From Caballeronia sp. BR00000012568055 (GTDB lineage Bacteria > Pseudomonadota > Gammaproteobacteria > Burkholderiales > Burkholderiaceae): 64,000 bases of DNA. Both the position numbers and the translations under genes were made by a program. The notes beneath the pieces are model-generated. The model worked only from the letters and a program-made list of their open reading frames with translations. It made no database searches and was not told the DNA's origin. Location of the stretch: positions 1 to 64,000 of the forward strand of contig NZ_JAQFVG010000251.1 of NCBI RefSeq assembly GCF_029439455.1. Reading direction: 5' to 3'. Below are positions 33,912 to 51,445 of the stretch, piece after piece; within the stretch, counting starts at the first letter, position 1; each line of letters starts with the position of its first letter.

Positions 33912-34997
33912 ATGCCTCGCATCAGATTGAAACTCGCCAGTTTTGTCGTGCTCGTGCTGCTTTCGACATCGTTCGCGCTGGCCTGCACGCGCGCGCTGTA
34001 TGTCGGCGACAAAGGGCTCGTCATCACGGGCCGCACGATGGACTGGTCCGAGGACATGCGCTCCAATCTCTGGGTGATGCCCGCAGGCATCGAACGTGAT
34101 GGCAACGCGGGACCGCGCTCGATCAAGTGGAAATCGAAATATGGGAGCGTGGTGGTCTCGGGTTATGAAATCGGCACCGTGGATGGCATGAACGAACGCG
34201 GACTGGTCGCCAACGCGCTCTATCTCGCGGAGACGGATTACGGCAAGCCCGACCCGAAGCGCGATCCGATGTCCATCAGCCTGTGGGCGCAATACGCGCT
34301 GGACAACTTCGCCACCGTCGGGCAAGCGGTCTACGTGATGAGCCGCGAGCCGTTCCAGATCATCGCGCCGCCGTTGCCGAACGGCAAACCGCTCACCATT
34401 CATCTTTCGTTGTCCGATGCACATGGCGATTCGGCCATCTTCGAATACATCAACGGCAAGCTCATCATTCATCAGGGCAAAAAGTACAAGGTCATGACGA
34501 ACTCGCCGATCTACGACGAGCAACTCGCCATCGACACGTATTGGCGAACGGTCGGCGGCTCGGGCTTTCTGCCGGGCACCAATCGCGCGGCGGACCGCTT
34601 CGTGCGTACTTCCTTTCTGCTCGATGCCATTCCCAAACAGTCCGATCCGAGCTATATGGCGGGCGTGCCGCAGCAATCGGGCGCGTATTTCGCGGCGGCG
34701 AGCGTGATGAGCCTGATGCGCTCGGTGAGCGTGCCGCTGGGCATCAGCACGCCGCAGCAGCCGAATCTCTCCTCGACCATCTGGCGCACGGTGTCGGATC
34801 AGCAGAATCTGGTTTATTACTTCGATTCAGCCACGCGGCCGGATACCTTCTGGGTGTCGCTCAAAAAGCTCAATCTCAATCCGGGCGCGCCGGTGATGAA
34901 GCTGACCATCGACCACGGGCAAGTGTTTTCGGGCGAGACGGCGGGCAATTTCGTGGCGACGCCCGCGTTCACTTTCATGCCTGCAAAAGCACCCTGA
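33912..34997 (+). CDS. Secreted Ntn hydrolase (choloylglycine hydrolase / penicillin V acylase family)
   Basis: 361 residues from ATG 33912, which has AAGGAG five bases upstream; ATG 33882 overlapping batD is a weaker alternative. The signal peptide ends SFALA and the next residue is Cys25, the expected N-terminal nucleophile (CTRALY). RTMDWSEDM and the later NEPFQ-like catalytic Asn/Arg segments fit the linear-amide C-N hydrolase group. Gram-negative members cleave penicillin V, bile salts or acyl-homoserine lactones. Signal peptidase would expose the nucleophile directly in the periplasm. Whether it belongs functionally to the Bat operon is unclear. Confidence 0.85.
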   Translation: MPRIRLKLASFVVLVLLSTSFALACTRALYVGDKGLVITGRTMDWSEDMRSNLWVMPAGIERDGNAGPRSIKWKSKYGSVVVSGYEIGTVDGMNERGLVANALYLAETDYGKPDPKRDPMSISLWAQYALDNFATVGQAVYVMSREPFQIIAPPLPNGKPLTIHLSLSDAHGDSAIFEYINGKLIIHQGKKYKVMTNSPIYDEQLAIDTYWRTVGGSGFLPGTNRAADRFVRTSFLLDAIPKQSDPSYMAGVPQQSGAYFAAASVMSLMRSVSVPLGISTPQQPNLSSTIWRTVSDQQNLVYYFDSATRPDTFWVSLKKLNLNPGAPVMKLTIDHGQVFSGETAGNFVATPAFTFMPAKAP

Positions 34998-35098: not shown

Positions 35099-35815
35099 GT
35101 GCAGACCGCTCCGCGCACAGCGATCAGCGGCCCGGCGCTGGTGCGCCTGCTGGCCCGTTTCGCCGCTCCAGACCAAGCCGTGGCCGTTCCGGCGTCCTCG
35201 CTGTCCGACCGCCTGAGCCAGTGGCTCGGCTGGACGGACGCGATCGCGCTATCGACCGCGCTCGCCGGCGATCCGCCCGCCGTGTCGGCGGCGGTTTCCG
35301 CGCCCGAAAGCGAGATCGACGCCGTCGTGAACGCGCACGATGCGCTCATGCGCCGATTGACCCGCGACGAGCGCAAGGAAGTCCGTGGTCGCAATCGCCG
35401 CGCGATGCCGCCGCCGCCGGATTTGCCCATCGACTACGCGGTGTTTCGGCAGGATTACCTGTCCGCCCAACAGTCGATGGAAACCGACATCGGCGCATGG
35501 CGCACGCGGCTGCGCGCGGCGGTCGCGGCGCAATCGACGGATATGACGCGCCTGGCCGTCGTCGATGCCGTGATGGAACAGGCGCTCGCCGCACGCGAAC
35601 GCACGTTGTTGTCGCAGGTTCCGGTGCTGCTCGGCAAGCATTTCGAGCGCCTGAAGCGTGCGAATGCGGACGCTGAAACGGGCACGCAAACTCAGGCCTG
35701 GCTCGACGACTTCCGCCGTGACATGCAGCACGTTCTGCTCGCGGAACTCGAAATTCGTTATCAACCGGTCGAAGCGCTGCTCGCGGCGCTCCGGCATCCT
35801 TCCAGCCCTCGCTGA
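35099..35815 (+). CDS. DUF3348 protein
   Basis: 238 residues from GTG 35099 (VQTAPRTAISGPALVRLLAR); TTG 35081 is an alternative. The N-terminal SDRLSQWLGWTDAIALS block is the DUF3348 signature. The protein is soluble with many charged helices and no signal or membrane segment, so it is probably cytoplasmic. It is the first gene of the operon DUF3348-DUF802-ompA-DUF2894, with 10 bases to the next start. No function is known; I infer a cytoplasmic accessory of the membrane motor encoded downstream. Confidence 0.82.
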   Translation: MQTAPRTAISGPALVRLLARFAAPDQAVAVPASSLSDRLSQWLGWTDAIALSTALAGDPPAVSAAVSAPESEIDAVVNAHDALMRRLTRDERKEVRGRNRRAMPPPPDLPIDYAVFRQDYLSAQQSMETDIGAWRTRLRAAVAAQSTDMTRLAVVDAVMEQALAARERTLLSQVPVLLGKHFERLKRANADAETGTQTQAWLDDFRRDMQHVLLAELEIRYQPVEALLAALRHPSSPR

Positions 35816-35825
35816 CTGGTACGCC

Positions 35826-38192
35826 ATGCCTCGCTATCTCTTGAACGTTGCAGTGTTTCTGGCCGGTCTCGCCGCGGTATGCGGCATCGCGGTCGGCTAT
35901 ATCGGCTCGAATTTTCTGGCGCTCGCGGTCACCTTGCTGATCGGCGCGTGCTATCTGGCCGGCGCATCCGAATTGCAGCGCTATCAGCAGACCACGCAAG
36001 CCTTCGCGCGCGTGCTCGATGCCCTGCACACGCCGCCCAAAAGCCTCGGCGTATGGCTGGAAAATCTGCCCGCGACGCTGCGCAATGCCGTGCGTTTGCG
36101 CGTGGAAGGCGAGCGCAGCGCCTTGCCGGGCCCGGCGCTGACGCCGTATCTGGTCGGCTTGCTGGTTTTGCTTGGGATGCTTGGCACGCTGCTCGGCATG
36201 GTCGTGACCTTGCGCGGCACGGGCGCGGCGCTCGAAAGCGCAACCGATCTTTCCGCGATTCGCTCATCGCTGGCGGCGCCGGTGACGGGCCTGAGTTTCG
36301 CGTTCGGCACCTCGATCGCGGGCGTCGCGACATCGGCGATGCTGGGTTTGCTGTCCGCCTTGTGCCGCCGCGAACGTATGCTGGCCGCGCAGACGCTGGA
36401 CCTCAAGATCTCGACGACGCTGCGTTCGTTTACGCCGATCCACCAGCGCGAGGAATCGTTCCGGCTGATGCAGCGGCAGGCGGACATCATGCCGAAACTC
36501 GCCGAACGCCTCGACGCGATGATGCACGCCATCGAACAACACAGCATGGCGGCGAACGAGCGGCAGATCGTCAATCAGGACGCGTTTCATGCGAAGACGG
36601 AGACGGCGTATCGGCGTTTGGCAAACTCGGTGGAGCAGTCGCTGAAGCAGAGCGTGGCGGACAGCGCGCGGGCCGCGAGCGCCGCGTTGCAGCCGATCAT
36701 GCAGACGACGATGGACGGCATCGCGCGGGAAACGGCAGCGTTGCAGGGCAAAGTGGAACAAGCCGTCGCGCAGCAACTCGATGGCCTGAAACACGGCTTC
36801 GAAGCATCGACGGAAAAGGTCGCGGATATCTGGACGCGTTCGCTCGACGGGCATCGCCAGTCGAATGCCAATCTGGTCGATGGCGTCGCCGCGCAGATCG
36901 GCGCGCTGAATGCGGGCTTCGAGTCGATGCTGGCGAAACACGCCGAATCGAGCGAGTTGCAAACGCAAGCGGCGGAGCAACGCGCGGACAGGCTGATCGA
37001 TAACGTTGCGACGCAAGTGGGCGCATTGAACGCCGGTTTCGAGTCGATGCTCAGCAAACACGCGCAATCCAGCGATGCCTTGGTCACCAAGATGGACGCT
37101 TCGACCGATCGCTTCGCCGAGCAACATGCGCAAGCGGGCGAGGCCATCGCCGCGCGTATGAACGATGCGTTGCAGCGTATCGCGCAGAGCTTCGACGAGC
37201 GTTCGACCACGTTGATCGATGGCGTGGCATCGCGCCTCGAAACCACGTCGTCGGGTTTGTCGCAGACGTGGCGCGACGCGCTCACGCAGCAGACGCAGGC
37301 CGGCGAAACGCTCGCCGCACAGCATGAAAAGGCCTTGAATAAGGCATCGGCGAACTTCGAACACCATGCGGCATCGCTATTGAATTCGATGGACCGCTCG
37401 CACGCGGACCTGCGCACCGAACTCGCCGCGAACCACGAAGCGCGTCTGACCGCATGGAACGATTCGCTCGCCGCGCTCGCCTCCACATTGCGCGAAGAAT
37501 GGCAGGCCGCGAACGCATCGACGGCGGCGCATCAGAAGCAAATCTGCGACACGCTGGAGCAGACCGCCAGCAATGTCTCCGCGCAAACCGAAGCGCATGC
37601 GAAGGCCACCATCGCGCAGATCGAAGGGCTGGTGCAGACCGCATCCGAAGCTCCGAAGGCGGCCGCCGAGGTCATCGCCGAACTGCGCCAGCAATTGTCC
37701 GATTCGATGGTCCGCGACACCGCCATGCTCGATGAGCGCGCGCGTCTGTTGTCCACGCTCGAAACACTGCTCGATGCGGTGAATCACGCATCGAAGGAAC
37801 AGCGCGTCGCCGTCGATGCGCTCGTCGCGAGTTCCGCCGATCTGCTCGAACGCGTCGGTACGCAGTTCACGGACAAGGTCGAAACCGAAACCGCGCGCCT
37901 TGGCGAAGTGGCCGCGCATGTCACCGGCAGCGCAGTGGAAGTCGCGAGTTTGTCGGATGCGTTCGGCTCGGCGGTGCAGGCATTTGGGACATCGAACGAA
38001 TTGCTGGTGACGCAGTTGCAGCGCATTGAAGGCGCGCTCGACAAGTCGCTTGCGCGCAGCGACGAACAGCTTGCGTACTACGTTGCGCAGGCGCGTGAAG
38101 TGATCGATCTGAGCCTGATGTCGCAGAAGCAGATTGTCGAGGACTTGCAGCATATCGCCGCGCAACGCGCGACAGGAGCGCGTGCCGCATGA
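35826..38192 (+). CDS. DUF802 protein: MotA/TolQ/ExbB-like channel with long cytoplasmic tail
   Basis: 788 residues from ATG 35826, which begins the first helix. Four membrane helices are predicted (about residues 4-26, 29-47, 106-128 and 150-178). The third carries LGMLGTLLGMVVTLRGTG and the fourth PVTGLSFAFGTSIAGVATS, which look like the two pore-lining helices of the MotA/TolQ/ExbB family, including the conserved GxLGT and the Thr-rich stretch. From residue about 200 to 788 the protein is a long, mostly helical, coiled-coil-like tail rich in Ala, Gln and Glu, with a 40-residue tandem duplication (350-389 and 390-429). Its stop overlaps the OmpA gene (ATGA). The motor function is my inference. 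Confidence 0.8.
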   Translation: MPRYLLNVAVFLAGLAAVCGIAVGYIGSNFLALAVTLLIGACYLAGASELQRYQQTTQAFARVLDALHTPPKSLGVWLENLPATLRNAVRLRVEGERSALPGPALTPYLVGLLVLLGMLGTLLGMVVTLRGTGAALESATDLSAIRSSLAAPVTGLSFAFGTSIAGVATSAMLGLLSALCRRERMLAAQTLDLKISTTLRSFTPIHQREESFRLMQRQADIMPKLAERLDAMMHAIEQHSMAANERQIVNQDAFHAKTETAYRRLANSVEQSLKQSVADSARAASAALQPIMQTTMDGIARETAALQGKVEQAVAQQLDGLKHGFEASTEKVADIWTRSLDGHRQSNANLVDGVAAQIGALNAGFESMLAKHAESSELQTQAAEQRADRLIDNVATQVGALNAGFESMLSKHAQSSDALVTKMDASTDRFAEQHAQAGEAIAARMNDALQRIAQSFDERSTTLIDGVASRLETTSSGLSQTWRDALTQQTQAGETLAAQHEKALNKASANFEHHAASLLNSMDRSHADLRTELAANHEARLTAWNDSLAALASTLREEWQAANASTAAHQKQICDTLEQTASNVSAQTEAHAKATIAQIEGLVQTASEAPKAAAEVIAELRQQLSDSMVRDTAMLDERARLLSTLETLLDAVNHASKEQRVAVDALVASSADLLERVGTQFTDKVETETARLGEVAAHVTGSAVEVASLSDAFGSAVQAFGTSNELLVTQLQRIEGALDKSLARSDEQLAYYVAQAREVIDLSLMSQKQIVEDLQHIAAQRATGARAA
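36873..37076 (+). repeat. 120-bp tandem duplication inside the DUF802 tail
   Basis: Two units start at 36873 and 36993, exactly 120 bases (40 codons) apart. They encode LVDGVAAQIGALNAGFESML and LIDNVATQVGALNAGFESML, each followed by similar A/S-KHA-S-S sequence. The second copy is complete for about 28 residues, then diverges. It lengthens the coiled-coil tail in phase. Confidence 0.75.
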
Positions 38193-38848
38193 GCAGCGAA
38201 GATTTCGACGGCGGTGTCGAAACCGCCGCGCCGGTCTGGGCCGCATTTGCCGATCTGATGTCGGTGTTGCTCGGCGCATTCGTGCTGATTCTGGTCGGTG
38301 TCATCGGCGTGCAATTGCAACTCTCGACACGGCTCGATGAAGCCATCAAGCAGCAACAAGAAGAAGCGCAGCGACGCAAGTCGCTCGAACAGGCGCTCGC
38401 GGGGCCGCTCGCTTCGGGACGCGTGACGCTGGTGAACGGGCGCATCGGGATCAGCGGGAATGTGTTGTTTGCGCTGAACTCGGATCAGTTGCAACCGCAA
38501 GGGCGCGATGTGTTGAAGAGTCTCGCCGGTCCGCTGCGCGCGTATCTGGATTCGCACGATCAGACGCTGATGGTGAGCGGTTTCGCCGACGATCAGCAAG
38601 TGCACGAAGGCAATCGGCGTTTCGCGGATAACTGGGAACTGTCGGCCAAGCGCGCGCTGACCGTCACGCGCGCATTGATCGATGCAGGCGTGCCCGCGTC
38701 CACGGTATTTGCGGCTGCGTTCGGATCGGAGCAGCCCGTCACGCCGAACAAGGACGACGAAAGCCGCGCGAAGAATCGGCGCGTGGAGATATCGGCGGTG
38801 CCGAAGCCTACGAACACCAATACCAGCACGACCATCAAACATGATTGA
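38189..38848 (+). CDS. MotB/ZorB-like OmpA-family protein
   Basis: 219 residues: a short cytoplasmic N-terminus, one membrane helix (about residues 17-41) with Asp22 in FADLMSVLLGAFVL, then a periplasmic linker and an OmpA-like peptidoglycan-binding domain (about 85-205) with NWELSAKRA and the closing NRRVEIS. The Asp at the start of the helix corresponds to the ion-carrying Asp of MotB, ExbD, TolR and ZorB. ATG 38189 overlaps the DUF802 stop, and its own stop overlaps the DUF2894 start. Pairing with the DUF802 channel is inferred from this architecture. Confidence 0.88.
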   Translation: MSSEDFDGGVETAAPVWAAFADLMSVLLGAFVLILVGVIGVQLQLSTRLDEAIKQQQEEAQRRKSLEQALAGPLASGRVTLVNGRIGISGNVLFALNSDQLQPQGRDVLKSLAGPLRAYLDSHDQTLMVSGFADDQQVHEGNRRFADNWELSAKRALTVTRALIDAGVPASTVFAAAFGSEQPVTPNKDDESRAKNRRVEISAVPKPTNTNTSTTIKHD

Positions 38849-39386
38849 GCGCGTGATGGCATCGCTCGAAGCATGGCGCGCATCCGGCGATGATCGCGTG
38901 AATCGCGTGCGCTTTCGTATGATCGAGGCGTTCGCGCTTCGTGCATCGCAATACGAAGGCGAAGCGCGGCGTGTGATGGACGCGCGTTTGTCGGCACTGG
39001 TCGAAGCGTACGAACAAGACGTCGCGAATAAAAAAGAAGCAGACGACGTTTCGGCAGAAAGCCCGCTCGCCCAACTTCTGCAAGAGATGCACCAACGCGC
39101 CGGGACTCACGCCGCGCCCGCGGAATTGGCCGATTATCTTCGCGCGGTTTGGTCCAGAGTCAGCGCGGAAAAGCGCCTGCGCGAATCGCTTGCGCAAGTG
39201 CCTAAAAACGCGGGGCCTTTGAATTCCAGCAGCCTCGTGCATCGCTCGCTTTCATTGATGCGCGAAGCCTCGCCCGAGTATTTGCAGCATTTTCTCAGCT
39301 ATCTCGACTCGCTCGCCTGGCTGGAAGACACCACCGCGCGCCCCGCGCCGACGAGCACGCCATCACGCAACAAACGCGGCGGCTGA
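38841..39386 (+). CDS. DUF2894 protein
   Basis: 181 residues from ATG 38841, overlapping the OmpA-family stop. The C-terminal half with the LREMHQRAG-like LLQEMHQRAG segment and the SLMREASPEYLQHFLSYLDSLAWLE block is the DUF2894 signature. It is soluble, strongly charged, and probably cytoplasmic. The Pro/Thr/Ser-rich end looks disordered. It closes the four-gene operon; function unknown, perhaps a cytoplasmic ring or tail-binding factor. Confidence 0.82.
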   Translation: MIERVMASLEAWRASGDDRVNRVRFRMIEAFALRASQYEGEARRVMDARLSALVEAYEQDVANKKEADDVSAESPLAQLLQEMHQRAGTHAAPAELADYLRAVWSRVSAEKRLRESLAQVPKNAGPLNSSSLVHRSLSLMREASPEYLQHFLSYLDSLAWLEDTTARPAPTSTPSRNKRGG

Positions 39387-39661: not shown

Positions 39662-42600
39662 ATGAATCATGTCTATCGCTTGTGCTGGAATCGTTCGCTT
39701 GCGCAATGGGTGGTCGCGTCGGAACTGGCGAAAGGCGGACGAAGGATTGCGGCGTGCGTGCTTGCGGGCGCCTCGTGCGCAACGTTTGCGGCAGGCGGTC
39801 CTGGCGGTGGACAGATCGTGTCGGGTGTCGGCAGTATCAGCGAATCGGGCGTGACCACCACGATTCAGCAATCGAGCCAGACGCTCAGACTCAACTGGCA
39901 AAGCTTCAATGTCGATGCCGCGCATACCGTCGATTTCGTACAGCCGGGCCGCAACGCGCTCGCCGTCAATCGCATTCAAAGCAGCACGCCCAGCGCGATT
40001 TTCGGGCGGCTGAATGCCAATGGTCAGGTCTGGCTCATCAATCCCAACGGCGTGTTGTTCGGGCCGTCTGCGCAGGTCAATGTGGGCGGCATTGTCGCGT
40101 CCACGCTCGATGTCGATGCAAACACGCTGAGCGGCAACACGCGCACGTTCAGCGGCGCGGGGCGCGGAAGTATCGTCAATCAAGGGTCGATCGTCGCGGC
40201 GGATGGCGGCTATGTTGCGCTGCTCGGCAATCGCGTGTCGAATCAGGGCGTGGTGTCGGCGCGGCTCGGCACGGTGGCGCTCGCGGGCGGCAGCGCGGCG
40301 ACGCTGACCTTCGACGGTTCACGCCTGCTTCACGTCGAAGTCGATGCCAGCACGCTCGGCAATCTCGCGGAAAACCGGCAATTGCTGGTCGCGGACGGCG
40401 GGCAGGTCGTCATGACGGCGGGCGCAAAAAACGAGCTGCTCGCGAGCGTGGTGAATAACACGGGCGAAGTGCGCGCGCGGACCGTCGGCGAGCAACAGGG
40501 CAAGATCGTGCTGCTCGGCGGCATGCAGGCGGGACAGGTGAACGTCGGCGGCACGCTGGATGCAAGTGCGCCCGAGGGCGGCGACGGCGGATCGATCGAA
40601 ACATCGGCGGCGCATTTCAATCTCGCGCCGGACGCGCATATCACGGCAGCCGCGCCTGATGGACACGCTGGCAACTGGCTCGTCGATCCAACCAATCTCA
40701 CCATCGACGCCACGACGGCGAGCACGGTATCGAACACCTTGCAAGGCGGCACCAGCGTCACGGAGCAGACCACGGCAACTGGCGCGACCGGTCCCGGCGT
40801 GCAATCGTCCGGCGCGGGCGATATCAACATCAACGCGCCCGTCACCTGGACCAACGCGGCGGCGAATTTCACCTTGCAGGCGCTGAACGCCATCAACGTG
40901 AACGCGGCGGTGAACGGCGCGGGCAATGTGACGATGCAGGCGGGCACCGGCAATCTGAGCATCGCGCCGGGCGCATCGGTGACGGGCGGCGCGGGCGTGG
41001 TGCTGGCGACATCGGCGAACTTCGTGAACAACGCGGGGAGCGCGGCGGTGAGTACGGGCACGGCCGCGCCGTGGCGTATCTATTCCACCGATCCCCGGCT
41101 CGATACAGCGGGCGGGCTCGCGCCTGCATTTATTCAGTACAACGCGCCATTTCAGACAGCCGCTGCTGCGAGCGGAAACGGCTTTCTTTACAGCCTTGCG
41201 CCGACGATTACCGTAACGGGATTGACCGGCACCATCAGCAAGGTCTACGACGGCACGAGCGCTGCGCCACTCACGGGCGCGAATCTCAACGCAAGCGGCC
41301 TCATCAACGGCAACACGATTCAAAGCGCTACCGGCACGTACGCCACGCCCAACGCGGGTACGACGATCCGCGTGTCATCGCCTGCGGCGAGTGCGGGTGT
41401 GGTCGTGACGGATGCCAGCGGCAAGATTCCCGTGTTCGGTTATGCGCTGGCGGGCGCGGTGACGGCGGATATCGGCATCATCACGCCTGCGCCGCTTGCC
41501 GCGACCATCGTCGGCGATCCGACCAAGGTGTACGACGGCTCCGCGTCGGCGTCGCTGGCAGCGGCGAATTACGGCTTGACCGGCTTCGTCGCCGGGCAGG
41601 GCGCGACAGTCAATCAGGCTAGTTCGGTTTCCTACGCAACCGGCGATGCAGGCGCGGCGATCCCCGTCAACGCGACGTTCGCATCGACCAGTTTTGTGGC
41701 CAATAGCGGCACGAGCCTGTCGAACTACAAGCTGCCGACCAGCGCGACGGGCATGGGCACCATCACGCCCGCGCCGCTGATCGTCACGGGGCTGCTGGCG
41801 AACAACAAGGTCTACGACGGCACATCGTCCGATGTGCTCACCGTCAATGGCGCGTCGATTTTCGGGGTCATCAGCACGGACGTGGGACAAGTCACGCTGA
41901 ACACGGCAGGCGCGACGGGCGTGTTCGCAACATCGAACGCGGGCAGCAATATCGCAGTTTCGGCTGCGGGACTGACGTTGACGGGTGCGCGTGCATCGAA
42001 CTACAGCATCGCGCCATCGACGAATCTGGCGGCGAATATCACGCCCAAAGCCATCACCGTTTCCGGCGTGACCGCGAATAGTAAGGTGTACGACGCGACG
42101 ACGGCAGCATCGCTCAATCTCGGCAGCGCCGCGATCACCGGTCTCGTTCCCGCCGATGCCGCCAACGTCACGCTCTCCACCGGTGCCGCAAAAGGCGCGT
42201 TCAGCCAGTCGAACGTCGGCAATGCATTGACAGTTTCTGCAACCGGTTTCGCGCTGGCGGGATCGGCGGCGGGTAATTATTCGGTGTCGGCGCTCACCGG
42301 CATCACCGCGAATATCACGCCTGCGCCGCTGACCATCAGTTTGCTCGGCGCGCCCTCCAAGGTCTACGACGGCAGCGCGAACGCCACGTTGACCGCATCG
42401 GATTATGCGATCTCGGGCTTTGTCGCCGGACAGAACGCGACGGTCGCGCAATCGTCCGCGCAGTATGCGACGGCGAACGCGGGCAACGGCATCACCGTGA
42501 CCGCGACGCTCGAAGCCTCGGACTTCGCGCCGGCTGCGGGCACGTCGATGTCGAACTATTCGTTTCCTGCCACGCGCACGACGACAAGCGGCGTGATTCG

Positions 42601-45600
42601 TCCAGCGCCGGTCACGGTGAATATCATTGGGAATCCTACTAAAGTATTCGATGGCAACGCGAACGCCACGCTGAGCGCAGGCAATTACGCCGTGTCGGGC
42701 GCGATTCCCGGTCAGTCGATCAGTCTGAATGGGGCGTCCACTTCGGCGCTGTATGCATCGGCGAATGCGGGGTTTCAGGGCGTGAGCGCAACGCTCGGCG
42801 GCGCGAATTACGTTGCGGGACCGGGTACGTTGTTGTCGAACTATCTGTTGCCGACGAGCGCGAGCGGCATGGGCACCATCACGCAGAAAGTGATCAGTAC
42901 GGGATTGACATCCGCAATCACGAACAATCCGACCAAGCTCTACGACGGCACCACGGTCGCGAACATTCCCGCCAATGATTTCACGCTGACGGGCTTTGTC
43001 GGCACGGATAGCGCAACGGTCACGCAGACGGTCACCGGGCAATATGCGTCCAAAAATGCCGGGCCGCAGCCCGTGCAGGCGACTCTGACGACATCGGAAC
43101 TCAGCGCGGGTCCGGGCACGAATCTGAACAATTATGTGTTTCCGGTGACGGCCTTCGGCAACGGCACGATTCTTCCTGCACCGCTCGCCGTATCGATAGT
43201 AGGGAATCCTACTAAAGTCTATAACGGCAACGCGACCGCAAACATCAGCAGCGGCAATTTTCAGCTCAACGGCTTTGTCGCGGGCGAGGGCGCGACGATC
43301 ACGCCGACCACGCAATTCAGCTATGCGCAGGCGAACGCGGGCGCATCGACGATCAGCGGTGCGCTCGTGTCAGGCAACTACGCGGCCAACGCCAACACGC
43401 TGCTGAGCAATTACGTGCTGCCGACGATGGCCTCCGGTCCCGGCATCATCACGCCCGCGCCGCTTTACATCATCAACACGTACGCGACCAACAAGGTCTA
43501 CGACACCACTTCCGCCGATACACTCGACACCAGCCGTTCCACGCTCTCCGGCCTCGTCGCCGCCGATGCGGGCAAGGTCACGCTCAATACATCGACCACG
43601 GGCACGTTCGCGCAATCCAATGCAGGCAGCAATATCGCGGTGACGGCGAGCGGCTTCGGCATTTCGGGCAGCGCGGCGGGCAATTACGCGTTGCAGCCGT
43701 TGACGGGACTCGTGGCGAACATCACGCCCGCGCAACTCACCGTGGGTGGCGCGGTGGCCAATAGCAAGGTCTATGACGGCACCACGACCGCGACCATCGA
43801 CAACAGCAAGGTCACGCTCTCCGGTGTGCTCGGCAGCGATAACGTCACGCTGACCGGCGAGAGCGCGACGGGGCGCTTTATCACATCGAACGTGGGCAAC
43901 AATCTAAGCGTGACGTCGAGCGGATACGCGCTCAGCGGCGCGCAAGCGGGCAATTACACGCTGACGCAGCCAGCCGGGTTGTTCGCCAACATCACGCCTG
44001 CGCCGCTCAATGTAGTGATCAGCGGGAATCCGGTGAAGGGTTATGACGGAACCACATCGGTCAGGCTCGGTTCGGCGGATTTCACGGTGACGGGCTTTGT
44101 CGGCAATCAGAGCGGACAGGTCGCGCAGGCAGCGTCCAGCGGCTATCTGTCGCCAAACGCGGGCGTGAATGTGGGCTTGAGCGCGACGCTGGAACCATCG
44201 GATTATGTGGCGGGCGCGGGCACGAATCTGTCGAACTATCGCTTGCCGACGAGCGCGACCGGCACGCTCGGGCAGATCACGCCGAAGATCATCGATCTGA
44301 CCGGGTCGCGCGTATATGACGGCACGACCAATGCCAACGCCGCTCTGTTCACGAACGCGGGCACGGTCGCCGGTATCAACGGGCAGACGCTGAGCTTGAG
44401 CGGCGCGGGCACGCTTGCGAGCAAGAACGTCGGCAGTCAGGTGGCGTTCACGGCGGGCACGCTGGCGCTCGGAAACGGCACGGGACTGGCGAGCAACTAC
44501 ACGCTGGCGGGTGGCATCGACTGGGTGACGATCACGCCCGCGACGCTCACGGTGATCGGCACGATCGCCAGCAGCCGCGTGTACGACGGCACCACCGCCG
44601 ATGCGCTGCAAGGCGCGCAATTGTCCGGCGCCATCGCGGGCGACGATGTCGTGCTCGGCAACGCGGCGACCGGCAGCTTCGCCAACAAGAACGCGGGCAC
44701 GGGCAAGGCGGTATCGACGAACATGAGCGTGTCGGGCGCGGATGCCGTCAATTACAAGCTCGTGCAGCCGACCGGTCTCACCGCCAACATCACGCCGCTG
44801 GCCATCACGGTGAACGCGACCGGCAACAACAAAGCCTACGACGCGACCACCGCGGCCAACGTGAATCTCACCAGCACGGGCGTGCTCGCGGGCGACAACA
44901 TCGTTTTCACCGACACCACCGCCAACTTCGCGCAAGCCAATGTGGGCAATAACATCGCGATTGCGGTGCTGGGTATCGGCGCGACGGGCACGGATGCGGG
45001 CAATTACGCGCTGCTCAATCCGACGGCCGCGACCAGCGCCAATATCACGCCGTTCGTGCTCAATCTCCAGGGCACGCGCGTGTACGACACGACCACGAGC
45101 GCCGCCGCCAGTCTCTTCGGCAACAAGGGCACGCTGACGGGCGTCGCGGGACAGACGCTCACGCTCGGCGGCGCGGGGACGCTGGCGAGCAAGACGGCGG
45201 GGACGCAGAAGGCGTTTGCATCGAATGGATTGAGCGGTTTTACGCTGACCGGCAACGGCGCGGCGCTCGCCAGCAATTACACGCTTACGGGCGGCACCGA
45301 TTGGGTCACGGTCACGCGCGCGCCGCTGACGGTCACGGGCACGAGCGCGCTGAGCAAGACGTACAACGGCACCACCGCCGCGCAATTGCAGGGCGCAACG
45401 CTCGTCGGCGTGCTCGGCGCGGACGCCGTCACGCTCGGCAATACGGCGACGGGCACGTTCAACAACAAGAACGTCGGCCAAGCCAAGCCGGTGACGGCGA
45501 GCATGACCCTCTCCGGCGCCGATGCCGCGAATTACGCGCTGACGCAGCCAGCGGGCCTTACCGCCAACATCACGCCGCTGGGCATTACGGTGAACGCAGC

Positions 45601-48600
45601 GGGCATCAGCAAGGTCTATGACGGCACGACGACTGCGCGCGTCACGTTCACCAGCCCCGGCCTCGTTTCCGGCGATAAAGTCACCTTCACCGATACCGCC
45701 GCCACCTTCGCGCAGTCCAACGTCGGCACGAATGTGCCGGTATCGGTCGCGGGCATCGGCGCGACGGGCACGGATGCGGCCAATTACACGCTGCTCAATT
45801 CGACGGCGAGCGCCACCGCGAACATCACGCCCTTCGTGCTGAACCTCAGCGGCACGCGCGTCTACGATGCACGAACCGATGCGAACGCGAGCCTGTTCGG
45901 ATCGAACGGTTTGCTGACGGGCGTGGCCGGACAGACGCTCACGCTTTCCGGCACCGGCGTTTTATCGACGAAGAACGTGGGCACGCAGCAGGCGTTTGCA
46001 TCGAATGGATTGAGCGGTTTCACGCTGACCGGCAACGGCACGGCGCTCGCCAGCAACTACACGCTCACGGGTGGAAAGGACGGCGTGACCGTCGTGCCTG
46101 CGACGCTGGCCGTCACCGGCACCACGGTCAATACCAAGGTCTACGATGCAACCACTGCCGCAAGCTTGAGCGGCGCGACGCTCGCAGGCGTACTCGGCAC
46201 CGATGCCGTCACGCTCGGCACCGCGGGCACCGGCACGTTCAACAACAAGAACGTCGGCGCAGGCAAACCGGTCACGCCCGCGACCATGACGATTTCCGGC
46301 ACCGATGCCGCGAACTATGTGCTCGTGCAGCCCACCGGTCTGAGCGGCACGGTCACGCCGCGTCCCGTCACGGTGAGCGCGACGGGGCAGAACAAGACCT
46401 ACGATGGCACGCCGAACGCGACCGTGACGCTGGCGCAATCGGGCGTGATCGCAGGCGACAGCGTGAGCTTCGGGTACGGCGGCGCGAGCTTCGGCACATC
46501 GAACGCGGGGACGGGCATCGGCATACAGGTGAGCGGGATTACCGGCAGCGGCGCGGATGCGGGCAATTACGCGTTCAATACGACGGCGGGGGCATCGGCG
46601 AATATTTTGCCTGTGGTGCTAAATCTGACCGGCACGCGGGTTTATGACGGCACGACGGGCGCGATTTCTACGCTGTTCGGCAATAGCGGCGTGCTGAACG
46701 GCGTTGCAGGGCAAACGCTGACGCTTTCCGGCGCGGGTTCCTTATCGACGAAAAACGTCGGCACGCAGCAGCCTTTGGCTACCAACGGCCTCACGCTGAC
46801 GGGAAACGGCGCGGCGCTGGCGAGCAATTACACGTTCGCGGGCGGTATCGATTGGGTGACGGTCACGCCGTTGCCGATCACGGTGAACGCCATCGCGCAG
46901 AACAAGACCTATGACGCGACGACAGCCGCGAACGTCGCGCTGAACAGCACCGGCGTGCTCGCGGGCGACATCGTCACGTTCGGCGATACCTCCGCCAACT
47001 TCACGACGCCGAATGCGGGAAGCGCGGTGCCGGTGACCGTGGCAGGCATCACCGCGAGCGGCGCCGATGCGCGCAACTACAGCTTTGCCACGACCGCGAC
47101 GACGAGCGCGACGATATCGCCCGTGGTATTGAATCTGACCGGCACGCGGGTTTATGACGGCACGACGGGCGCTGCTTCTACGTTGTTCGGCAGCAACGGC
47201 GTGCTGAATGGCGTCGCGGGGCAAACGCTGACGGTTTCCGGCGCGGGTACGTTGCCGACGAAGAACGTCGGTACGCAGCAGCCTTTGGCGACGAGCGGTC
47301 TCACGCTGACCGGAAACGGCGCGGCATTGGCGAGTAACTACACGTTCGCGGGCGGCATCGATTGGGTGACGGTGACGCCGCTTGCCGTGACGATCGGCGC
47401 GATCGGACAGAACAAGACGTACGACGCGACGACGAACGCGCAAGTCGCGTTGAGCGAGAAAGGCGTGCTGGCAGGCGATAACGTCGCGTTCGATTACGCG
47501 TCCGCGAACTTCAATACGCCCAATGCGGGCGCGAATATTCCCGTGCAGGTTTCGGGGATTACGGCAAGCGGTGCCGATGCGCGCAATTACAGTTTTTCCA
47601 CGAACGCGACTACGATCGCGACGATATCGCGTGTCGTGTTGAATCTGACCGGCACACGGGTTTATGACGGCACGACGGGCGCGGGTTCTGCGTTGTTTGG
47701 CAATAACAGCGTGCTCGATGGCATCGCCGGGCAAACCCTGACGCTTTCAGGTGCGGGCACGCTATCGACGAAGAATGTTGGTACGCAGAAGCCTTTGACG
47801 ACCAACGGCCTCACGCTGACCGGCAACGGCGCGGCGTTGGCGAGCAACTACACGCTGACGGGCGGTATCGATTGGGTGACGGTGACGCCGCTTGCGATCA
47901 CGGTCGGCGCAATCGGCCAGAACAAGACGTACGACGCAACGACGAACGCGCAAGTCGCGTTGAACCAGACCGGCGTGCTCGCGGGCGATAACGTCAGCTT
48001 TAACTACGCATCCGCGAACTTCACGACGCCGAACGCAGGCACGAACATTCCCGTGCAAGTCTCAGGCATCACCGCCAGCGGCAGCGATGCCGCCAACTAC
48101 ACGATCAACGCGACGACCAGCACGGCGGCGAACATCGCGCCAGTTGTGCTGAATCTCACCGGCACGCGCGTGTATGACGGCACAACGGGCGCTGTTTCTA
48201 CGCTGTTCGGCGATAACGGTGTGCTCAACGGCGTCGCGGGACAAACGCTGACGGTTTCAGGCGCGGGCACATTGCCGACCAAGAACGTCGGTGCGCAACA
48301 GCCTTTGGCAACGAACGGACTCACGCTGACGGGCAATGGCGCGGCATTGGCGAGCAACTACACGCTGGCGGGCGGTATCGATTGGGTGACGGTCACGCCG
48401 CTTGCGATCACGATCAGCGCGATCGGCCAGAACAAGACGTATGACGCGACGACGAACGCGAAAGTCGCGTTGAACGAGCAAGGCGTGCTCGCAGGCGATA
48501 ACGTCGCGTTCGATTACTCCTCCGCGAACTTCAATACGCCCAATGCGGGCGCGAATATTCCTGTGCAAGTCTCGGGCATCACCGCAAGCGGCGCGGATGC

Positions 48601-51445
48601 AGTGAACTACAGCTTCTTATCGAACGCGACGGCGAGCGCGACTATCGCGCCTGCGATGTTGAATCTCACGGGCACGCGTGTGTATGACGGCACGGCGGGC
48701 GCTGTTTCTACGCTGTTCGGCGATAACGGCGTGCTGAACGGCGTCGCGGGGCAAACGCTGACGGTTTCAGGCTCGGGCACGCTGCCGACCAAAAACGTCG
48801 GCACACAGCAGCCTTTGACAACGAACGGATTCACGCTGACCGGCAACGGCGCGGCGCTGGCGAGTAATTACACGCTGGCGGGCGGTATCGATTGGGTGAC
48901 GGTCACGCCGCTTGCCATCACGATCAGCGCGATCGGCCAGAACAAGACATATGACGCGACGACGAACGCGCAAGTCGCGTTGAACGAAACCGGCGTGCTG
49001 GCGGGCGACAACATCGCGTTCAACTACGCGTCCGCGAATTTCACGACGCCGAACGCAGGCACGAACATTCCCGTGCAGGTCGCAGGCATCACCGCCAGCG
49101 GCAATGACGCATCAAATTACACGATCAACGCAGCGACAACGACCACAGCGAACATCGCGCCTGTCGTGCTGAATCTGACGGGCACGCGCGTGTATGACGG
49201 CACGGCCGGCGCGAACGCCAATCTCTTCGGCACTAACGGCGTGCTCAACGGCATCGCAGGGCAAACGCTGACGCTTTCAGGTGCTGGCACGTTATCGACG
49301 AAAAACGTCGGTACGCAGCAGCCTTTGGCAACCAACGGCCTCACGCTGACGGGCAACGGCGCGGCGCTCGCGAGCAACTACACGCTGGCAGGCGGTATCG
49401 ATTGGGTGACGGTGACGCCGCTTGCGATCACGCTCACAGCCACAGGCCAGAACAAAACATACGACGCGACGACAAACGCACAAGTCGCGCTGAACGAGCA
49501 AGGCGTGCTCGCAGGCGATAACGTCAGCTTCAACTATGCGTCCGCGGACTTCACAACGCCGAACGCAGGCACCAACATTCCCGTGCAGGTTGCAGGCATC
49601 ACCGCCAGCGGCAATGACGCATCAAATTACACGATCAACGCAACGGCAAGCACCACAGCGAACATCGCGCCCGTCGTGTTGAATCTCACCGGCACGCGCG
49701 TGTACGACGGCACGACAGGCGCGAACGCGAATCTCTTCGGCACCAACGGCGTGCTCGACGGCATCGCCGGACAAACGCTCACGCTAAGCGGAGCCGGCAC
49801 GCTGCCGAGCAAGAACGTCGGCACGGAACAGCCGCTTGCGACCGATGGCTTCACGCTGACGGGCAACGGCGCGGCGTTGGCGGGGAACTACACGTTCGCG
49901 GGCGGCATCGATTGGGTGACCGTTACGCCGAAGCCGATCGTCATCAGCTTTACGCCGTTGAGCAAGACCTACGACGGCACCACGGCCGCGCAGTTCACCG
50001 GACTGCATATACAAGGCCTGCTCGGCGGCGATGCAGCCACCGTCACCGCGAACGGCGCGACCTTCAGTTCACCGAACGTGGGCGGCGGCAATATCGTGGC
50101 GCTAACGGGAATCACGGCGAGTGGAATTGGTTTGGGTAACTACACATTCAGTACCACGGCGAGCGCGCCCGCGCAGATTTTGCCCGTCGTGTTGAATCTC
50201 ACAGGCACGCGTGTATATGACGGCACGACCGTCGCAGCTTCCACATTGTTCGGCAATAACGGCGTGATCAACGGCGTCGCCGGACAAACGCTGACGGTTT
50301 CAGGCGCGGGCACGCTATCGACGAAAAACGTCGGCACGCAGCAGCCTTTGGCCACCAACGGACTCACGCTGACCGGCAACGGCTCGGCGCAGGCGGGCAA
50401 TTACACGCTCGCGGGCGGCATCGATTGGGTGACAGTCCCGCCGCTTGCCATCAACGTCAGCGCGACGGCGGCCAACAAGGTTTATGACGGCACGCGCGCT
50501 GCATCGGTCGATCTGTCGGGCAACGGCGTGCTCAAGGGCGATGACGTCAGTTTCAGCGCGCAGTCCGCAAGCTTTGCATCGCCGAATGCGGGGAACGGGA
50601 TCGATGTCGCGGTGACGGGCATCCAGGGCAGCGGCGCGGCGGCGGGGAACTACACGTTCAATTCGACGGCGACGGCATCGGCGAATATCACGCCGGTCGT
50701 GCTCGGTCTGACCGGCAGCCGCGTGTATGACGCGACAACCGGTGTATCGGCGGGATTGTTCGGCGCGAACGGCGTGTTGAATGGCATCAATGGCGAGACG
50801 GTCACGTTGTCGGGCAGCGGCGTGCTCGCAAGCAAGAACGTCGGCAATCAAATCAACTTCACGACGGGCACGCTGACGCTCGCAAACGGCAGCGGGCTGG
50901 CGAGCAATTACACGCCGGCGGGCGGCATCGACTGGCTGACGATCACGCCCGCGACCTTGCACGTGGTCGGCACGCAGGCGACCAGCCGCTTATACGACGG
51001 CAGCATCGCCGATACGCTCTCGGGCGCGACGCTTACAGGCGTGCTCGGCAGCGATCAGGTCACGCTCGTCAACGGCACATCGGGCGCGTTCCACGATCCG
51101 GTCATCGGCAACGGCAAGCCGGTCAGCACGGCCATGTCGATCGATGGAACCGACGCGGGCAATTACGTGCTCGTGCAGCCATCGGCCTTGAGCGCGGACA
51201 TCACCGCGCAGGCCGTGCCGATCACCACCGTGCCCGTGGGCACCTTCGCCAGCACGCAGGCGCTGGTCGGCGCGAACGGCGTCGCCACGCCGTACGGCAC
51301 CGCGCCTGCCGGTTCGCCGGGCGACACCACCGGCAATCAGAAGCAGGAAGACACACCCGGCGAGCGCAACGTCGCGCGATCCGACTTCAATCCCGGACTC
51401 GCGCTGACGGTGATCAACGGAGGAATTCGATTGCCGGCGAATTGA
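39662..51445 (+). CDS. Giant TpsA adhesin (filamentous haemagglutinin N-domain plus about 38 MBG/YDG modules)
   Basis: 3927 residues. The N-terminus MNHVYRLCWNRSLAQWVVAS is an extended signal peptide (ESPR) as in FhaB/HMW proteins, with cleavage near AGASCATFAA. The TPS secretion domain spans about residues 45-310 and holds NPNG (Asn127-Gly130). From about residue 515 to 3830 the protein is a chain of MBG/YDG modules of 80-90 residues, each with a K-V-Y-D-G/A-T box; I count about 38. The last 90 residues are non-repetitive. No VENN motif or toxin-like C-terminus is seen, so it is a surface adhesin or biofilm matrix protein rather than a CDI toxin. The TpsB transporter gene follows 90 bases downstream. 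Confidence 0.93.
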   Translation: MNHVYRLCWNRSLAQWVVASELAKGGRRIAACVLAGASCATFAAGGPGGGQIVSGVGSISESGVTTTIQQSSQTLRLNWQSFNVDAAHTVDFVQPGRNALAVNRIQSSTPSAIFGRLNANGQVWLINPNGVLFGPSAQVNVGGIVASTLDVDANTLSGNTRTFSGAGRGSIVNQGSIVAADGGYVALLGNRVSNQGVVSARLGTVALAGGSAATLTFDGSRLLHVEVDASTLGNLAENRQLLVADGGQVVMTAGAKNELLASVVNNTGEVRARTVGEQQGKIVLLGGMQAGQVNVGGTLDASAPEGGDGGSIETSAAHFNLAPDAHITAAAPDGHAGNWLVDPTNLTIDATTASTVSNTLQGGTSVTEQTTATGATGPGVQSSGAGDININAPVTWTNAAANFTLQALNAINVNAAVNGAGNVTMQAGTGNLSIAPGASVTGGAGVVLATSANFVNNAGSAAVSTGTAAPWRIYSTDPRLDTAGGLAPAFIQYNAPFQTAAAASGNGFLYSLAPTITVTGLTGTISKVYDGTSAAPLTGANLNASGLINGNTIQSATGTYATPNAGTTIRVSSPAASAGVVVTDASGKIPVFGYALAGAVTADIGIITPAPLAATIVGDPTKVYDGSASASLAAANYGLTGFVAGQGATVNQASSVSYATGDAGAAIPVNATFASTSFVANSGTSLSNYKLPTSATGMGTITPAPLIVTGLLANNKVYDGTSSDVLTVNGASIFGVISTDVGQVTLNTAGATGVFATSNAGSNIAVSAAGLTLTGARASNYSIAPSTNLAANITPKAITVSGVTANSKVYDATTAASLNLGSAAITGLVPADAANVTLSTGAAKGAFSQSNVGNALTVSATGFALAGSAAGNYSVSALTGITANITPAPLTISLLGAPSKVYDGSANATLTASDYAISGFVAGQNATVAQSSAQYATANAGNGITVTATLEASDFAPAAGTSMSNYSFPATRTTTSGVIRPAPVTVNIIGNPTKVFDGNANATLSAGNYAVSGAIPGQSISLNGASTSALYASANAGFQGVSATLGGANYVAGPGTLLSNYLLPTSASGMGTITQKVISTGLTSAITNNPTKLYDGTTVANIPANDFTLTGFVGTDSATVTQTVTGQYASKNAGPQPVQATLTTSELSAGPGTNLNNYVFPVTAFGNGTILPAPLAVSIVGNPTKVYNGNATANISSGNFQLNGFVAGEGATITPTTQFSYAQANAGASTISGALVSGNYAANANTLLSNYVLPTMASGPGIITPAPLYIINTYATNKVYDTTSADTLDTSRSTLSGLVAADAGKVTLNTSTTGTFAQSNAGSNIAVTASGFGISGSAAGNYALQPLTGLVANITPAQLTVGGAVANSKVYDGTTTATIDNSKVTLSGVLGSDNVTLTGESATGRFITSNVGNNLSVTSSGYALSGAQAGNYTLTQPAGLFANITPAPLNVVISGNPVKGYDGTTSVRLGSADFTVTGFVGNQSGQVAQAASSGYLSPNAGVNVGLSATLEPSDYVAGAGTNLSNYRLPTSATGTLGQITPKIIDLTGSRVYDGTTNANAALFTNAGTVAGINGQTLSLSGAGTLASKNVGSQVAFTAGTLALGNGTGLASNYTLAGGIDWVTITPATLTVIGTIASSRVYDGTTADALQGAQLSGAIAGDDVVLGNAATGSFANKNAGTGKAVSTNMSVSGADAVNYKLVQPTGLTANITPLAITVNATGNNKAYDATTAANVNLTSTGVLAGDNIVFTDTTANFAQANVGNNIAIAVLGIGATGTDAGNYALLNPTAATSANITPFVLNLQGTRVYDTTTSAAASLFGNKGTLTGVAGQTLTLGGAGTLASKTAGTQKAFASNGLSGFTLTGNGAALASNYTLTGGTDWVTVTRAPLTVTGTSALSKTYNGTTAAQLQGATLVGVLGADAVTLGNTATGTFNNKNVGQAKPVTASMTLSGADAANYALTQPAGLTANITPLGITVNAAGISKVYDGTTTARVTFTSPGLVSGDKVTFTDTAATFAQSNVGTNVPVSVAGIGATGTDAANYTLLNSTASATANITPFVLNLSGTRVYDARTDANASLFGSNGLLTGVAGQTLTLSGTGVLSTKNVGTQQAFASNGLSGFTLTGNGTALASNYTLTGGKDGVTVVPATLAVTGTTVNTKVYDATTAASLSGATLAGVLGTDAVTLGTAGTGTFNNKNVGAGKPVTPATMTISGTDAANYVLVQPTGLSGTVTPRPVTVSATGQNKTYDGTPNATVTLAQSGVIAGDSVSFGYGGASFGTSNAGTGIGIQVSGITGSGADAGNYAFNTTAGASANILPVVLNLTGTRVYDGTTGAISTLFGNSGVLNGVAGQTLTLSGAGSLSTKNVGTQQPLATNGLTLTGNGAALASNYTFAGGIDWVTVTPLPITVNAIAQNKTYDATTAANVALNSTGVLAGDIVTFGDTSANFTTPNAGSAVPVTVAGITASGADARNYSFATTATTSATISPVVLNLTGTRVYDGTTGAASTLFGSNGVLNGVAGQTLTVSGAGTLPTKNVGTQQPLATSGLTLTGNGAALASNYTFAGGIDWVTVTPLAVTIGAIGQNKTYDATTNAQVALSEKGVLAGDNVAFDYASANFNTPNAGANIPVQVSGITASGADARNYSFSTNATTIATISRVVLNLTGTRVYDGTTGAGSALFGNNSVLDGIAGQTLTLSGAGTLSTKNVGTQKPLTTNGLTLTGNGAALASNYTLTGGIDWVTVTPLAITVGAIGQNKTYDATTNAQVALNQTGVLAGDNVSFNYASANFTTPNAGTNIPVQVSGITASGSDAANYTINATTSTAANIAPVVLNLTGTRVYDGTTGAVSTLFGDNGVLNGVAGQTLTVSGAGTLPTKNVGAQQPLATNGLTLTGNGAALASNYTLAGGIDWVTVTPLAITISAIGQNKTYDATTNAKVALNEQGVLAGDNVAFDYSSANFNTPNAGANIPVQVSGITASGADAVNYSFLSNATASATIAPAMLNLTGTRVYDGTAGAVSTLFGDNGVLNGVAGQTLTVSGSGTLPTKNVGTQQPLTTNGFTLTGNGAALASNYTLAGGIDWVTVTPLAITISAIGQNKTYDATTNAQVALNETGVLAGDNIAFNYASANFTTPNAGTNIPVQVAGITASGNDASNYTINAATTTTANIAPVVLNLTGTRVYDGTAGANANLFGTNGVLNGIAGQTLTLSGAGTLSTKNVGTQQPLATNGLTLTGNGAALASNYTLAGGIDWVTVTPLAITLTATGQNKTYDATTNAQVALNEQGVLAGDNVSFNYASADFTTPNAGTNIPVQVAGITASGNDASNYTINATASTTANIAPVVLNLTGTRVYDGTTGANANLFGTNGVLDGIAGQTLTLSGAGTLPSKNVGTEQPLATDGFTLTGNGAALAGNYTFAGGIDWVTVTPKPIVISFTPLSKTYDGTTAAQFTGLHIQGLLGGDAATVTANGATFSSPNVGGGNIVALTGITASGIGLGNYTFSTTASAPAQILPVVLNLTGTRVYDGTTVAASTLFGNNGVINGVAGQTLTVSGAGTLSTKNVGTQQPLATNGLTLTGNGSAQAGNYTLAGGIDWVTVPPLAINVSATAANKVYDGTRAASVDLSGNGVLKGDDVSFSAQSASFASPNAGNGIDVAVTGIQGSGAAAGNYTFNSTATASANITPVVLGLTGSRVYDATTGVSAGLFGANGVLNGINGETVTLSGSGVLASKNVGNQINFTTGTLTLANGSGLASNYTPAGGIDWLTITPATLHVVGTQATSRLYDGSIADTLSGATLTGVLGSDQVTLVNGTSGAFHDPVIGNGKPVSTAMSIDGTDAGNYVLVQPSALSADITAQAVPITTVPVGTFASTQALVGANGVATPYGTAPAGSPGDTTGNQKQEDTPGERNVARSDFNPGLALTVINGGIRLPAN
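44294..46621 (+). repeat. Higher-order A-B-C module repeat, about 780 bp
   Basis: Three module types recur in order: A (LTGTRVYDGTT), B (VTGT...YDGTTAA.L.GA) and C (AxGxNKxYDATT). A modules start at 44294, 45062, 45842 and 46622, giving spacings of 768, 780 and 780 bases, so the three-module unit is about 260 codons. Confidence 0.8.
46622..50194 (+). repeat. Higher-order A-C module array with exact 510-bp period
   Basis: A modules begin at 46622, 47132, 47642, 48152, 48662, 49172 and 49682, each exactly 510 bases apart, and the next at 50195 (513). Each unit has one A and one C module (170 residues); the B module of the preceding array is missing. Neighbouring units are near-identical over long stretches by eye. 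Confidence 0.9.

Follow-up and report, generated by a model that had tools for sequence, protein, structure and literature searches.

The four-gene operon at positions 35099-39386 of the Caballeronia window (the whole 64,000-nucleotide stretch of DNA analyzed here) is, as judged from its sequence, a complete Zorya type III locus, and thus belongs to a system that has already been described. PADLOC models match all four proteins (Table 1), and the zorAB pair is flanked by genes for a DUF3348 protein and a DUF2894 protein, the combination by which type III is recognized; weaker matches link the DUF802 protein to ZorA1 (1.1e-10) and the OmpA-type protein to ZorB1 (1.5e-18). Payne et al. (2021; PMC8565338) found 6,401 such four-gene sets and named them Zorya type III, and reported that a type III system of Stenotrophomonas nitritireducens in E. 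coli lowers plaquing for at least one of the tested phages and protects cultures. A preliminary description of this DNA had stated that no function was known for the operon, which the 2021 phage-protection assay shows to be wrong; its proposal of a kinship with ZorAB agrees with the PADLOC matches of the DUF802 protein to ZorA3 and ZorA1, and of the OmpA-type protein to ZorB3 and ZorB1. All four proteins, their order, and their domains are the same in the window as in Zorya type III as represented in PADLOC and in Payne et al. Nothing sets the Caballeronia copy apart, and it is one more member of the type.

The genes are joined by a 10-base gap, then an ATGA junction, and then an 8-base overlap (ATGATTGA). 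ORF positions bear out the four genes and coordinates of the preliminary description, which was also right about the gap and the second junction, but had taken the third for a 4-base ATGA as well. Pfam identifies the domains listed in Table 1, with the three DUF802 stretches together reaching 6.3e-22. By itself, Pfam gave a clear function for none of the four proteins, as might be expected of four unrelated hypothetical genes that had come to form an operon by chance. However, the gene order, on one strand, is kept in 60/60 fetched loci of relatives in the same family, and the DUF3348, ZorB3, and DUF2894 families occupy identical sets of genomes (see below); these observations rule out a chance operon, to which we assign practically no probability. 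All four genes are present in 75 of 80 named loci, and the remaining five have no DUF3348 gene because the contig ends on the upstream side there. We note that names differ between sources: in the text of Payne et al., ZorF is the DUF3348 protein and ZorG the DUF2894 protein, and the core pair is printed as 'zorBC', and PADLOC-DB has the two partner names reversed (ZorG3 for DUF3348 and ZorF3 for DUF2894).

Table 1. Positions of the genes and notable features of the Zorya type III locus in the window
Feature	Position	Strand	Evidence
DUF3348 protein	35099-35815	+	238 aa, GTG start; PF11828 2.3e-74; PADLOC PDLC00658 5.2e-81
ZorA of type III (DUF802 protein)	35826-38192	+	788 aa; PADLOC ZorA3 E 0
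ZorA membrane segment 3 (residues 109-127) with Thr121	36150-36206	+	Hydropathy; Thr121 aligned with 8VVN chain C
ZorA membrane segment 4 (residues 158-176) with Thr162-Ser163	36297-36353	+	Hydropathy; aligned with Thr-Ser of 8VVN chain C
Three DUF802 matches in ZorA rod	36792-36923, 37122-37217, 37224-37382	+	PF05650 5.9e-8, 4.4e-6, 1.5e-13
Conserved ZorA tail tip (residues 601-775)	37626-38150	+	Low column entropy, two sequence sets
ZorB of type III (OmpA-type protein)	38189-38848	+	219 aa; PADLOC ZorB3 3.1e-114
Codon of ZorB Asp22, proposed ion-carrying residue	38252-38254	+	Shared by ≥97% of 61 sequences; paired with Asp24 of 8VVN chain B
ZorB OmpA-type peptidoglycan-binding domain (residues 93-197), predicted	38465-38779	+	PF00691 1.2e-18
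DUF2894 protein	38841-39386	+	181 aa; PF11445 6e-48; PADLOC PDLC00652 1.4e-64

By sequence comparison, ZorA3 and ZorB3 are homologous to the ZorA and ZorB of known structure and retain the channel helices, the aspartate, and the putative wall-binding domain. A hydropathy scan gives the DUF802 protein four membrane segments (residues 1-19, 30-48, 109-127, and 158-176), as had been predicted, followed by a cytoplasmic tail of ∼590 residues, and gives the OmpA-type protein one (residues 23-41); the motifs quoted earlier for the former and Asp22 in the latter are present. ZorA3 matches chain C of PDB entry 8VVN at 6.1e-5 over the whole protein and at 0.00011 for residues 1-220, and the latter alignment, made from sequence, pairs its Thr121 and Thr162-Ser163, which are identical in at least 97% of 61 sequences, with chain C. 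The ZorB3 helix likewise aligns with chain B (E 0.00021), placing Asp22 on Asp24, the residue that the 8VVN paper names as the critical ZorB aspartate (PMC11890865). The OmpA-type domain, predicted by PF00691 to bind peptidoglycan, has MotB and OmpA-type domains as its nearest solved chains (3KHN, 1.8e-17), and the NCBIfam equivalog model PRK09040 scores 383 bits on ZorB3 against a cut-off of 194. Together with PADLOC, these alignments support the preliminary picture of a channel protein with a long cytoplasmic tail, paired with a partner bearing an Asp helix and an OmpA peptidoglycan domain.

The good match to MotB chains raises the question as to whether the pair is instead a flagellar-type or Ton/Tol-type energizer, a stator or transporter motor with no relation to Zorya. 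The MotA-MotB flagellar stator does share with the window the channel, the Asp helix, and the OmpA-type domain, but the operon has in addition a long ZorA3 rod and two soluble partners, DUF3348 and DUF2894, that keep it constant company. Curated flagellar MotB cut-offs are missed by a wide margin (PRK06667, 57.1 of 300 bits; PRK09041, 54.9 of 277), although that of PRK09040 is exceeded, and the best solved match to ZorA3 is a type I ZorA (8VVN). We thus consider an energizer of this kind very unlikely.

Zorya types I and II have in common with the window the ZorA-ZorB motor, the aspartate of the ZorB helix, the wall-binding domain, and the cytoplasmic rod, and defense by these two types reportedly depends on Asp24, on peptidoglycan binding, and on the tail (PMC11890865). 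They differ in their other components: PADLOC models for ZorC, ZorD, and ZorE match none of the four operon proteins, and the NCBIfam ZorA_1 model gives 26.6 bits on the window's ZorA against a cut-off of 190, so that the locus is of neither type I nor type II. A further difference lies in size: the components of types I and II are reported to vary little (PMC11890865), whereas 61 ZorA3 sequences span 631 to 1045 aa.

This variation is unevenly distributed, and ZorA can be divided into a membrane head that is conserved, a rod that differs greatly in length, and a tip that is again strongly conserved, an architecture that we did not find in print. Among the 61 sequences, column entropy is 0.17-0.58 at residues 101-175, which include the channel helices, and mostly ∼1.0-1.7 in the rod, where occupancy drops to as low as 0.18 (residues 426-450) and a mean of 66 residues per sequence is inserted near residues 526-550; in the tip (residues 601-775), it is 0.34-0.73 per 25-residue block, except at 676-700 (1.28). 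The same picture is seen in a second set of 79 sequences, which partly overlaps the first in species (entropies of 0.31 for the head, 0.96-1.20 for the rod, and 0.45-0.48 for the tip). Lengths in this second set reach 1,155 aa, and its three shortest members (239, 336, and 578 aa) fit loci cut at a contig end. We reasoned from the conserved tip and the variable rod length that the tip, rather than the length of the rod, probably carries the specific function. Searching 299 genomes with the tip by itself returned 16 strong matches, every one in a DUF3348-positive genome, and two weak ones (∼1e-4) in genomes lacking DUF3348; a second copy was looked for in the window's genome, and none was found. 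Lengthening of ZorA by whole DUF802 repeats was also considered and is rejected, with repeat number, counted using an HMM built from the three stretches of the window's ZorA, being weakly related to length (Spearman 0.22).

Type III is steadily retained in the large-genome relatives of the window's family, a pattern that we did not find in print. In 150 genomes of the family with at least 90% completeness, the three marker families (DUF3348, ZorB3 scored as PRK09040 over cut-off, and DUF2894) occur in exactly the same 101 genomes, with one locus each, and the suggested pairing of the DUF802 and OmpA genes is thus sustained, in that they are not found apart. The DUF3348 gene is split into two partial matches in genomes G015 and G050, and second matches in G052 (DUF3348) and G101 (DUF2894) are under the cut-off. 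Of the 112 genomes that measure at least 3 Mb, 101 have the operon, as do 0 of the 38 smaller ones; it occurs in 11 of 25 genera, with 16/16, 14/14, and 14/14 genomes in three of them, 13/14, 14/15, 10/11, 10/14, 4/8, 3/3, 2/3, and 1/2 in the others, and none in 14 genera. For comparison, hsdR of type I restriction is over its cut-off in 29 of the 150 genomes (24 of the 112 larger ones), and none has a match over the cut-off of NF033914, the model for type I ZorA, although 38 have a weak one, in some cases to type III ZorA itself. Within the family, the distribution of type III is closer to that of a core gene, and a defense system would not usually be so close to fixed as type III is in the large-genome Burkholderiaceae, albeit by a small yardstick, because only these two comparison families were run. 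A 2025 paper describes the distribution of the three Zorya types as typical of anti-phage systems (PMC11890865). Further afield, the operon is rare: of 250 genomes from the order, 14 are over the cut-off (four of them from the window's family), and of 397 from the phylum, 23 are, none outside the window's class. DUF3348 is found in none of 50,697 phage records, and a viral scan run with one protein, an approach limited to close relatives, gave four stretches that match a pattern, none of them a relative. Among 72,556 plasmid records, it is present in 27, all of 0.37-3.5 Mb, 20 of which are classed as non-mobilizable and seven as mobilizable.

Operon and rpoB distances among 60 genomes are correlated (Spearman 0.42, a value reached by 0 of 500 permutations), and nearest neighbors share a genus in 55 of 59 cases for the operon and 58 of 59 for rpoB. 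Nonetheless, strictly vertical descent is not upheld: the operon tree splits genera g1, g11, and g25, each of which stays together in the rpoB tree, and because of this some exchange of the operon between genera is likely; genera g10 and g20 are whole in neither tree. A fixed genomic site was likewise rejected, as neighbors are common within sub-clades of a genus and hardly between genera. The nearest flanking ORFs of the 60 loci encode ordinary enzymes, transporters, and regulators, with at most 7 of 120 matching a PADLOC model at 1e-10.

We also examined the two soluble partners. The AlphaFold2 model of DUF3348 has nine helices and no strand (pLDDT 86.1, pTM 0.80) and that of DUF2894 has seven helices and no strand (pLDDT 79.2, pTM 0.45), and neither gave a convincing PDB relative or a confident fold match. 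Because both models are all-helical and lack such a match, no nuclease is evident in the type III set; the nuclease step with which types I and II end has no visible counterpart here, although a novel or host-encoded nuclease may exist.

The partners also differ from ZorB in evolutionary rate: ZorB keeps pace with its neighbors, whereas the rates of DUF3348 and DUF2894 are roughly threefold higher, chiefly in the window's genus, a difference that again we did not find in print. Relative to neighboring genes in the same genome pairs, dN/dS is 3.28-fold for DUF3348 (99 pairs), 3.11-fold for DUF2894 (99 pairs), 2.10-fold for ZorA (101 pairs), and 1.04-fold for ZorB (100 pairs). This pattern fits, and is as expected from, a constant motor whose soluble partners face changing pressure, but it also fits helical proteins under looser constraint. 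Indeed, relaxed constraint explains the fast partners equally, because the increase is strongest in the window's genus, which contributes 59 of the ∼100 pairs, because the DUF3348 ratio is near 1 in genera g3, g10, and g11, and because dN/dS is never above 1 (maximum 0.88, in a short ZorB stretch).

Taking these observations together, we think it probable that Zorya type III is an ion-driven, wall-anchored motor that is mainly selected for defense and kept long-term in these genera. The model proposed for types I and II comprises wall sensing, rotation, and nuclease recruitment (PMC11890865, Nat Commun 2025). For type III, a plausible scheme is that five ZorA and two ZorB subunits would form an inner-membrane motor that stays silent until ZorB grips the peptidoglycan upon disturbance of the wall, as by an injecting phage, after which ion flow past Asp22 would turn ZorA and its cytoplasmic rod. 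Conservation suggests that the tip is the working end, where DUF3348 and DUF2894 would be met, and that the rod between head and tip serves as a spacer whose length is of little matter. The output, unlike that in types I and II, likely uses no fused or set-encoded nuclease, and would be an action of the two helical proteins, perhaps on DNA, on the membrane, or in recruiting a host factor.

In the main competing explanation, the operon encodes a housekeeping motor of the cell envelope, present in Burkholderiaceae and some Xanthomonadales, for sensing or repairing wall stress, and phage protection in E. coli is a side effect of expressing a wall-gripping channel. The near-fixed distribution, with one locus per genome in 101 of 112 large family genomes and in 11 of 25 genera (three of them at 16/16, 14/14, and 14/14), suits such a broader role, as do the ordinary neighbors with few PADLOC matches, the absence of DUF3348 from phage records, and its presence in only 27 of 72,556 plasmid records, all of 0.37-3.5 Mb. 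A CRISPRi study of Burkholderia cenocepacia K56-2 (PMC12584637) points the same way for one native host: Zorya III is among the predicted systems, and knocking down predicted defense genes altered fitness against the phage Bcep176 in no case. However, this screen used a single phage, and the same study reports altered transcription of the leading one or two genes of Zorya I and III. A housekeeping role also sits poorly with the 11 large and all 38 small genomes that lack the operon, with its rarity elsewhere in the order and phylum, and with the exchange indicated by the three broken-up genera. The fast evolution of the soluble partners and the published protection assay (PMC8565338) count against it too. 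Defense is favored by the assay, by the relationship to types I and II, by the rapidly evolving partners, and by the exchange, and we rank it first, as the probable main role in these genera, with a wall-stress motor second and rather unlikely. More tentatively, it is conceivable, if somewhat doubtful, that large-genome Burkholderiaceae keep type III as a lasting part of their genomes and not as a roaming module, and that it is a wall-anchored motor with a rod of nearly free length and a nearly constant tip that acts without a nuclease through two fast-changing helical proteins at the tip, and perhaps a general sensor of wall breaches of which phage defense is one use.

With the system itself known, interest turns to how type III acts on phage or cell. 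We found no mechanism for it in the accessible portions of the literature on DUF802, DUF3348, DUF2894, and Zorya type III. The model of types I and II ends in nuclease recruitment by the ZorA rod (PMC11890865), and type III, having no evident nuclease, is therefore a natural test of a more general action of the rod. ZorA residues 601-775 are a short, named stretch that carries the conservation and offers a handle on rod function. Given the near-fixed distribution, one may ask whether a system classed as mobile defense belongs to the permanent inventory of an entire bacterial family. Most worth following are the steadiness with which it is retained, the pairing of a constant tip with a variable rod, and the effector that is missing.

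Several minor observations concern the partners and the surroundings of the operon. Possible distant relatives of DUF3348 are seen in two genomes of another family in the order (G157, locus L166, 4.1e-5; and G279, locus L165, 5.4e-6), as weak matches to model residues 25-156 within frames of 453-460 aa. The control genome of Corynebacterium glutamicum is over the DUF2894 Pfam cut-off, far outside the known range of this family. Upstream of the operon, positions 33912-34994 (+ strand) encode a choloylglycine-hydrolase-type enzyme (PF02275, 9.4e-38), relatives of which lie just upstream in 8 of 16 Caballeronia loci, the window included, and MoxR/BatA/BatB/BatD-type genes precede it (upstream of 33885; BatD-like match 0.00019). 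Directly behind the operon is a gene (39662-51445, + strand) for a 3,927-aa two-partner-secretion exoprotein with ESPR and TPS domains and at least eight YDG repeats in its first 1,260 residues, followed by an ORF (51536-53239) that by eye resembles its outer-membrane transporter; the other fetched Caballeronia loci have different neighbors in this place.
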